A DNA stretch of 64,000 nucleotides from Micromonospora sediminimaris. Lineage in GTDB: Bacteria > Actinomycetota > Actinomycetes > Mycobacteriales > Micromonosporaceae. The notes under the pieces were generated by a model. It searched no databases. It saw only the letters and a list, made by a program, of their open reading frames with translations, and was not told the DNA's origin. The stretch is taken from assembly GCA_900112325.1 (NCBI GenBank), contig FOLJ01000013.1, positions 124,001 through 188,000 on the forward strand, read 5' to 3'. Shown here piece by piece: positions 5,728 through 8,229 of the stretch (within the stretch, counting starts at the first letter, position 1; each line of letters starts with the position of its first letter). Position numbers and translations under genes: made by a program.

Positions 5728-5888
5728 GGCCTCTCCCCTCGGTCGTGACCTCCTGACCGCCGCCGCTTTCCCCTTCCCCCCGCCCGAAAACGCCCCACCC
5801 GGCTCACCCCGGCAACGGACGCCGACAAGTCTGACCCAATATGTCAGTTATTGTCCGGTTCGCCGGTGGCCGAGGCCACCCCACCGGC

Positions 5889-5914
5889 GGAATCGCGGGC
5901 CGGGTCCGGTGGTT
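5889..5914 (+). promoter_or_regulatory. SigR-like promoter, copy 1
   Basis: GGAAT at 5889-5893 and GTT at 5912-5914, spaced by exactly 18 bases. This is the GGAAT-N18-GTT pattern of the actinomycete oxidative-stress sigma factor SigR. It is the farthest of three such sites upstream of the C39-type peptidase. Confidence 0.45.
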
Positions 5915-5964
5915 GTACATGGGGTAACCACGGGCGCCTCCGAGCGCCGCCCCCGGCCCGGGTC

Positions 5965-5990
5965 GGAATGGCTCCCCGCCGTCGGGCGTT
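5965..5990 (+). promoter_or_regulatory. SigR-like promoter, copy 2
   Basis: GGAAT at 5965-5969 and GTT at 5988-5990 with an 18-base spacer. It lies 76 bases downstream of copy 1. The surrounding GGAATGGC and GCGTTACACC are shared with copy 3. Confidence 0.5.
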
Positions 5991-6039
5991 ACACCCCCGG
6001 ACGACAACGCCAGCGCCATCCGCCTCCCCGCGAGGCCCG

Positions 6040-6065
6040 GGAATGGCCCCGGCCCACCCGGCGTT
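6040..6065 (+). promoter_or_regulatory. SigR-like promoter, copy 3
   Basis: GGAAT at 6040-6044 and GTT at 6063-6065 with an 18-base spacer, 75 bases after copy 2. It is the site nearest the peptidase and would give a leader of about 145 bases. Confidence 0.5.
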
Positions 6066-6219
6066 ACACCTGGCCGGGCCGCGAGCCCCCGGTGCCACCC
6101 CGCATCCCCGGGACACCGGACGAACGCCGCAAAGCCTCCCCCCTTCTCGCATGGCTCACCCGCATCCCCCACACGCGGGCGGAGCCGCGCGCACCCCCGA
6201 CCGAAAGGTGCAGATCATC

Positions 6220-6876
6220 ATGGCTACCACCATCCTGCGTAAGACCGCCCTGACCATCGCCGCTGCCGCCGCCACCGCCGGCGGCATCGCCGGCCCCGCC
6301 ATCGCCGCCCAGGCCACCCCGGGTGTCCAGGCGAGCGCCGTGCAGGCCGACCGCAAGCCCGGCGGCGAGCGCGAACTCGGCGTCCGCTACGAAGCCCAGC
6401 CCAACTTCTACTACTGCGGCCCCGCCGCCGCCCGCAACGCCCTGAGCGTGCAGGGCAAGAACATCGACGTCGACACCATGGCCAAGCAGATGCGCACCAC
6501 CGAGGCCGGCACCAACTCCATCAACGACATCACCCCCGTGCTCAACAAGGAGACCGGCAAGAACGTCTACAAGTCCGTCGAAATCGCCGACCCCAAGGCC
6601 GACGACAAGCAGACCGACAAGCTGCGCGACGACATCGTCCGCACCGTCAACGACGGCCGCGCCGTAGTCGCCAACATCGCCGGCACCGCCACCGACACCG
6701 ACGGCACCACCCACAGCTTCGAAGGCGGCCACTACATCAGCGTCGTGGGCTACCGCGACGGCGGCGACACGGTCACCATCGCCGACTCCGCCGACCCCGC
6801 CCAAGCCTCCTACCGGATGAGCATCGACACCCTCGCCGACTGGATCGCCACCCGCGGCTACAGCGCCACCTCCTGA
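6220..6876 (+). CDS. Secreted C39-family (papain-like) peptidase
   Basis: A 218-residue protein with a classic signal peptide (KTALTIAAAAATAGG core, AIAAQA cleavage near residue 32). The mature part has YYCGPAAARNAL (catalytic Cys), GGHYISVVGY (His) and TIADSADP (Asp), the triad layout of Peptidase_C39_2 proteins. These are free-standing secreted cysteine peptidase-like proteins, not bacteriocin exporters. Codons are almost uniformly C-ending, stronger than in the neighbours, suggesting high expression. The ATG at 6220 follows aaaggtg. No transporter, bacteriocin or substrate gene lies beside it. Fold confident, substrate unknown. Confidence 0.85.
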   Translation: MATTILRKTALTIAAAAATAGGIAGPAIAAQATPGVQASAVQADRKPGGERELGVRYEAQPNFYYCGPAAARNALSVQGKNIDVDTMAKQMRTTEAGTNSINDITPVLNKETGKNVYKSVEIADPKADDKQTDKLRDDIVRTVNDGRAVVANIAGTATDTDGTTHSFEGGHYISVVGYRDGGDTVTIADSADPAQASYRMSIDTLADWIATRGYSATS

Positions 6877-6890
6877 CCAACCGAAACACC

Positions 6891-6926
6891 ACGAAGGGCC
6901 GACCCCACCCGGGGCCGGCCCTTCGT
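6891..6926. terminator. Strong hairpin after the C39-type peptidase
   Basis: The arms 6891-6906 and 6911-6926 pair over 16 positions with a single mismatch and a 4-base loop, starting 14 bases after the stop. There is no U-run, as is usual in actinomycetes. Confidence 0.75.
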
Positions 6927-6956
6927 CGTCTCTCCCCGAACCACCCCGGGATACGA

Positions 6957-7014
6957 CAACATCGGGGATGTTGCTCCCTCGCCGTGGCGTGACACGGCAA
7001 CATCCCCGATGTTG
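6957..7014. repeat. Nested intergenic inverted repeat between convergent genes
   Basis: Two 18-base arms (6957-6974 and 6997-7014) are exact reverse complements around a 22-base loop. Each arm is itself a small palindrome, AACATC-ggg-GATGTT. It lies between the peptidase (+) and dusB (-), so it can end both transcripts and could form a cruciform. Confidence 0.7.
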
Positions 7015-7050
7015 CTGGCTGGGCTCCCCGCCGGCAGGCGGGTGGAGGGA

Positions 7051-8229
7051 TCAGCCGCCGGAGTCGTCCAGCTCGGCGCCCTCCGGAACGGTGTCGTCGT
7101 CGCGGCTGGCCAGCCAGCCGTCGGGCAGGAAGACCTTGCCCGGTGAGTTGGTACGACCGCGCGGCTGCCCCAGCGTCTCGACCGGGAACGGTACCGCCGG
7201 GTCGAGCTTGCCGAGCAGGTCGTCCAACTGGGCCAGGCTGTCGATCATCGCCAGCGAGCGGCGCAGCTCGCTGCCCACCGGGAAGCCCTTGAGATACCAG
7301 GCGACGTGCTTGCGGAAGTCGGTGCAGCCGTCCCGTTCACCCCGGGCCGGGGTGCGGGAACCGGCGGTGAACTGCTCGACCAGCAGCTCGGCATGCCGGC
7401 GCATGGTCACCGCGACCTCGCCGAGGGTGGGCAGCCGGCGCTGCGACGAGCCGTTGAACGCCGCTTCCAGGTCGGCGAAGAGCCACGGGCGGCCGAGGCA
7501 GCCGCGACCGATCACCACGCCGTCGACCCCGGTGTGCGCCACCATCCGCAGCGCGTCGTCGGCCTCCCAGATGTCGCCGTTACCGAGCACCGGCACGTCG
7601 AGGGCCTGCTTGAGAGTGGCGATGGCGTCCCAGTCCGCCGTGCCCGAGTACCGCTGCGCGGCCGTACGACCGTGCAGGGCGACCGCGGCGACGCCGGCCT
7701 CCTGGGCGGCGAGCCCCGCCTCGACGTACGTCAGGTGCTCGTCGTCGATGCCCTTGCGCATCTTGACCGTGACCGGCACCCCGGCGGGTGACGCGGCGTC
7801 CACGGCGGCCCGCACCAGGCGGGCGAAGAGCCGCCGCCGCCAGGGCAGGGCCGCGCCACCACCGCGCCGGGTCACCTTCGGCACCGGGCAGCCGAAGTTG
7901 AGGTCGATGTGATCGGCGAGGTCCCGTTCGACCACGATCCGCACGGCGGCAGCGGTGGTCTCCGGGTCGGTGCCGTAAAGCTGGAGGCTGCGTGGGCGCT
8001 CGTCGGCCCCGAACGCGATCATCCGCAGCGTCTTCGGGTTCCGCTCGACCAGGGCGACCGTCGTGATCATCTCGCAGACGTAGATGCCGCCGCCCTGCTC
8101 CCGACAGAGCTGCCGAAAGCCGACGTTTGTGATGCCGGCCATCGGGGCGAGCACCACCGGCGGCCACACCTGGTGCGGCCCGATGCGCAGCGACGGCCGG
8201 TCGGCGGCGGGAGGGAGGGCGGTTTCCAC
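7051..8229 (-). CDS. dusB: tRNA-dihydrouridine synthase
   Basis: A 392-residue flavoenzyme of the Dus family that reduces uridine in tRNA with NADPH. APMAGITN at the FMN-binding start of the barrel, HIDLNFGCPVPKV with the catalytic Cys, VKMRKGID, ALHGRTAAQRY and GVVIGRGCLGRPWLF are all present. The length suits the DusB group, including its C-terminal helical RNA-binding part. It starts at GTG 8229 without a clear Shine-Dalgarno. The gene stands between an intergenic hairpin and the TPR gene upstream on the same strand. Confidence 0.95.
   Translation of the reverse strand: METALPPAADRPSLRIGPHQVWPPVVLAPMAGITNVGFRQLCREQGGGIYVCEMITTVALVERNPKTLRMIAFGADERPRSLQLYGTDPETTAAAVRIVVERDLADHIDLNFGCPVPKVTRRGGGAALPWRRRLFARLVRAAVDAASPAGVPVTVKMRKGIDDEHLTYVEAGLAAQEAGVAAVALHGRTAAQRYSGTADWDAIATLKQALDVPVLGNGDIWEADDALRMVAHTGVDGVVIGRGCLGRPWLFADLEAAFNGSSQRRLPTLGEVAVTMRRHAELLVEQFTAGSRTPARGERDGCTDFRKHVAWYLKGFPVGSELRRSLAMIDSLAQLDDLLGKLDPAVPFPVETLGQPRGRTNSPGKVFLPDGWLASRDDDTVPEGAELDDSGG

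Follow-up and report, generated by a model that had tools for sequence, protein, structure and literature searches.

The SigR regulons known from earlier work are concerned chiefly with thiol balance in the cytoplasm and with protein quality. The sigma factor is freed from RsrA under disulfide stress, and in Streptomyces antibiotics that inhibit translation raise its level as well (PMC4921905). Its consensus in S. coelicolor is GGAAT-N18-19-GTT (PMC9205884), while the -10 element of the Corynebacterium glutamicum SigH reads t/cGTTgaa (PMC10012870). The locus described here resembles the promoters of S. coelicolor SigR and of SigH from Mycobacterium and Corynebacterium in its GGAAT-N18-19-GTT pattern, in the extension of its -10 element and in the occurrence of such sites at sigR and thioredoxin genes. 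It differs from them in that two to five copies are stacked before each gene, and in that the genes behind the arrays code for predicted secreted hydrolases, whereas the SigR/SigH targets serve mainly cytoplasmic thiol and protein-repair functions. A second point of comparison is the Streptomyces SigE cell-envelope regulon (PMC6767563), in which an ECF sigma factor likewise acts on genes of the cell envelope.

The window, i.e. the whole stretch of DNA analysed, spans 64 kb of a Micromonospora sediminimaris genome (6.4 Mb, 33 contigs). The initial annotation had reported in it three copies of GGAAT-N18-GTT, about 75 bases apart, and these are found where it had placed them, with starts 76 and 75 bp apart and all three facing the gene of a C39 peptidase (Table 1). 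They are the sole exact matches in the window, for which shuffled sequences predict 0.24, with no shuffle giving three, and the probability that three same-strand sites fall by chance within the 492-bp gap is near 1e-10. Genome-wide, the pattern has 37 matches as against 2 for its reversed form. In the intergenic stretch before the C39 gene no sigma-70-like promoter was found, and in the leader the matches to known RNA families were all sub-threshold. We consider the best explanation, with a probability of roughly 0.7, to be that the three sites are real and independently usable promoters of the SigR (SigH/ECF12) type that lie in series before the gene of a secreted C39-like peptidase and belong to an extracellular arm of the SigR response particular to this lineage.

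Table 1. Features of the focal locus (window coordinates)
Feature	Position	Strand	Remarks
Putative SigR-type promoter site 1	5889..5914	+	Distal type GGAATC-N17-GTTGTACATGG; agrees with the distal element conserved in C39 arrays
Putative SigR-type promoter site 2	5965..5990	+	GGAATG-N17-GTTACACCCCCGGACGAC; GGACGAC downstream resembles sigR promoters
Putative SigR-type promoter site 3	6040..6065	+	GGAATG-N17-GTTACACC; start codon 180 bp downstream
Gene of predicted secreted C39-like cysteine peptidase, 218 aa	6220..6876	+	One cysteine (catalytic C66); H171 and D189 invariant
GC-rich inverted repeat downstream of the stop codon, probable terminator	6892..6925 (arms 6892-6901 and 6916-6925)	+	Read from the sequence
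Cassette (array, gene and terminator)	5850..6947	+	Second genomic copy on another contig (G000:C17, L001 4248-5346), 98.9% identity over 1.1 kb

Copies 2 and 3 had been noted to share further bases, and the triplication had been taken as a sign of duplication. The shared bases are present directly adjacent to the boxes (GGAATGGC, GGCGTTACAC) but not elsewhere in the unit, as the 75-bp units of these two copies, minus the boxes, are 42% identical compared to 39% after shuffling. We rejected a recent triplication of a 75-bp unit: the units show 47-48% identity overall and 40-42% without the boxes, the same as shuffles, and the distal copies (GGAATC, GTTGTACATGG) and proximal C39 copies (GTTACACCCC) are of separate types, each kept across species. 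Given that the units in the window are, outside the boxes, no more alike than shuffled DNA, it appears that the copies are old and have been held by selection on the boxes. The duplicating unit is instead the whole cassette of array, gene and terminator, the unit common to most paralogue pairs beginning a little upstream of the first site and ending some 40-90 bases past the stop codon. The variation in copy number among paralogues (1-5) could also suggest that a single copy per array is active and the others are remnants, and a further C39 paralogue of the genome (L098, 57% identity) has degenerate copies only, two sites 70 bp apart. We regard this as improbable, because every copy retains the boxes and the base of the GTTnnA feature within DNA that has otherwise diverged to the level of chance, and because distal and proximal copies alike have retained their own type. 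The most distant C39 paralogue of the genome (L099) has no sites.

The sequence evidence supports the initial annotation's proposal of SigR-type promoters: the sites are deeply conserved, and the sigR and thioredoxin genes of the genome have the same motif. The sites combine the -35 GGAAT and the -10 GTT at a spacer within the 18-19 bases by which SigR/SigH promoters are recognised. A single gene of the genome, sigR, lies above the TIGR02947 cut-off (354 bits), and the reading frame after it (in L086) has the zinc anti-sigma motif HHLDECGPC. A site of the array kind precedes sigR in 30/30 genus genomes examined, with a 19-base spacer in 27 of them, and single 18-base sites in the genome are found at the genes of thioredoxin, an Fe-S assembly protein, a luciferase-like monooxygenase and a DEAD helicase. 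Among the bases left free by the search, 174 elements have T in 82% and C in 93% of cases directly before GTT, and A in 95% as the third base after it, making GTTnnA their most conserved free-base feature; this A agrees with the -10 element of C. glutamicum SigH (PMC10012870). Taken together, the conserved free bases and the similar sites at sigR and thioredoxin make SigR control the best reading. The arrays have an 18-base spacer in 174/185 sites and TCGTTnnA, where the sigR promoter has mostly 19 bases and GCGTTAC, suggesting that another ECF sigma factor of similar taste, with a preference for GGAAT and CGTT and dedicated to the cell envelope, could recognise them; 27 genes of the genome match the sigma-factor model, and the products are extracellular, like many Streptomyces SigE targets (PMC6767563). 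We hold this to be unlikely, given that the thioredoxin gene has the same 18-base spacing and that none of the other sigma-factor genes found in the genome has an exact autoregulatory site nearby, pointing at itself. Moreover, the -35 of SigH/SigR is GGAAT and not the GGAAC that C. glutamicum SigE needs (PMC10012870), the T of the arrays being one that the search itself demanded.

The even spacing emphasised in the initial annotation holds locally, but is not a conserved feature, as the gaps of other arrays vary, clustering at 70-95 bp, never falling below 50 bp and ranging to over 120 bp. With gaps scattered in this manner, strict helical phasing of the sites was rejected. One polymerase covers a length of DNA that is about the size of these gaps, which would fit independent loading at each site. 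Multiple spaced copies are also typical of operators, and the boxes might bind an activator or repressor instead of acting as promoters, a reading for which the palindrome CGGTCGTT...AACGACCG around the -10 in some arrays also speaks. We consider this very improbable, since the element, asymmetric and with its gap fixed at 18 bases, corresponds to a known sigma consensus and faces its gene in 332/332 cases (174:0 and 158:0), and since the palindrome is not a general feature. We likewise rejected an attenuator or conserved palindrome at the -10, the downstream half of the palindrome occurring in 46/161 elements of one set and 1/164 of the other.

The gene downstream of the array was correctly recognised as that of a secreted C39-type peptidase (PF13529, 83.1 bits against a cut-off of 24). 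The catalytic Cys/His/Asp residues C66, H171 and D189 are invariant across 15 sequences of the C39 family, and C66 is usually the sole cysteine of these proteins. The focal protein is thus a member of the C39-like peptidases by both score and catalytic residues, and peptidase activity is predicted for it; a search of the PDB found no sequence relative of the family. The terminator scan, which requires a T run, did not report the inverted repeat behind the gene. Two facing copies of a short palindromic element, CAACATCGGGGATGTTGC, lie 3' of the cassette (window 6957-7015), and related copies are seen near the second cassette (L001 5383-5443), at about 4793-4873 of L002 and elsewhere in the genome, in the manner of a dispersed repeat. 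The cassette adjoins a tRNA-dihydrouridine synthase gene (window 7051-8229, minus strand) here and in several other genomes, so that this is probably the old home locus of the C39 family.

An array of this kind had been deemed unexpected before a C39 peptidase, yet it proves to be the rule for the C39 family and also for a second, muramidase-like family. Two more pairs of sites in the genome, 86 and 76 bp apart, are situated upstream of genes for small secreted muramidase-like proteins, and all 40 arrays (40/40) from six other genomes are upstream of one or the other family. Among 30 arrays sampled one per genome, 26 precede either family, 3 run into a contig end and 1, next to a transposase gene, is an orphan. 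The orphan (L039, about 1501-1680) has three sites and no C39 or muramidase gene behind them, with a transposase-like frame at 96-1280, and was perhaps orphaned by insertion. To avoid selection by motif, homologues were also collected by protein, counting loci with enough upstream DNA: at least one exact site was present in 101/101, and two to five sites in 82. For the C39 loci these numbers were 73/73 and 59, and for the muramidase-like loci 28/28, with two or more sites in 23. Given that 14/73 C39 loci have a single exact site, stacking is not essential to this family. Across genera, C39 homologues of at least 50% identity mostly have 1-5 sites, whereas most members of a clade at 48% or less have none.

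Profile comparison relates the second family to solved muramidase structures (8b2h, E 1.8e-16; 8b2e, E 4.8e-16), and a catalytic-type glutamate, E102, is invariant within its LQESKLEN motif, although the match to Pfam SLT_3 stays below the cut-off at 18.3 bits. The structural profile match and the invariant acidic residue point to muramidases, with the activity being predicted. In contrast to 8b2e and 8b2h, these proteins are short, free of cysteine and furnished with a leader resembling that of the C39 family. An N-terminal export leader can be read in both families, both of which are multicopy, and residues 1-45 (LRKxxLxxAGxAxxGGxxAGP...) are similar between these two unrelated enzymes, as if promoter array and leader had been joined to different mature domains. 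Close copies of the muramidase-like gene number up to nine per genome (25 genomes), and the paralogues cluster by genome (7 label changes compared to 18.5 in shuffles), suggesting repeated origin or homogenisation of copies within each lineage.

A search of related genomes for the array, which had been proposed as a check, revealed that it is strongly conserved within the genus and also in several of its sister genera. Stacked pairs, defined in the genus search as two sites 35-65 bases apart from end to start, were detected in 154/160 Micromonospora genomes; individual genomes had as many as 20 matches, and the reversed-pattern control gave 0. At the level of the family 10/44 genera have stacked pairs, Verrucosispora and Phytohabitans being among the named carriers, while large genome sets of other genera have none. 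It speaks against the SigR reading that several well-sampled genera of the family have no stacked sites, although SigR is expected in them. The search at class level, which additionally required the A after each GTT, found a stacked pair in just 1/244 genomes outside the family (G441, L261).

These observations suggest a mechanism in which disulfide stress would cause RsrA to release SigR, or antibiotic exposure would raise it, so that SigR-RNA polymerase could load at each site. With a spacing of about 60-100 bp adjacent polymerases would bind with little overlap, and the contributions of the sites could then sum to a high output of the secreted enzyme when stress sets in, giving a strong pulse of hydrolase. 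The strong or graded output suggested earlier for this locus is plausible. The extracellular branch would comprise the two multicopy cassette families, spread and homogenised as whole units, and candidate roles of their enzymes include wall remodelling, clearance of damaged proteins and attack on neighbours. More broadly, and tentatively, Micromonospora and its sister genera may possess an undescribed extracellular SigR arm, in which dispersed, self-homogenising cassettes with 2-5 stacked promoters and a common leader drive a peptidase or a muramidase, the number of promoters serving as an output dial. If true, a conserved set of secreted hydrolases of cell wall and peptides, each behind stacked SigR-type promoters, would link extracellular remodelling or attack to redox or antibiotic stress in a major antibiotic-producing genus, and the natural series of 1-5 copies per gene makes the old question of tandem-promoter additivity directly testable. 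Such a family-specific extracellular stress response has apparently not been described before: a search of open-access papers, with most subscription journals outside its range, found no account, for Micromonospora, of C39 peptidases or of SigR promoters in stacks, and in a paper on Micromonospora sp. RV43 that discusses SigR we found no mention of a peptidase or lysozyme.

Fragments of muramidase-like genes are also seen at the ends of contigs of the focal genome (G000), namely C13, C15 (both ends) and C33 (both ends), and several have 3' parts 100% identical to the copy on C16. Near-identical copies thus seem to break the assembly, suggesting that the true number of muramidase-like copies is above that which is visible. 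On C15, a long head-to-tail run of a GGGTGGC unit (L002, about 940-1075) lies upstream of a stacked promoter pair.
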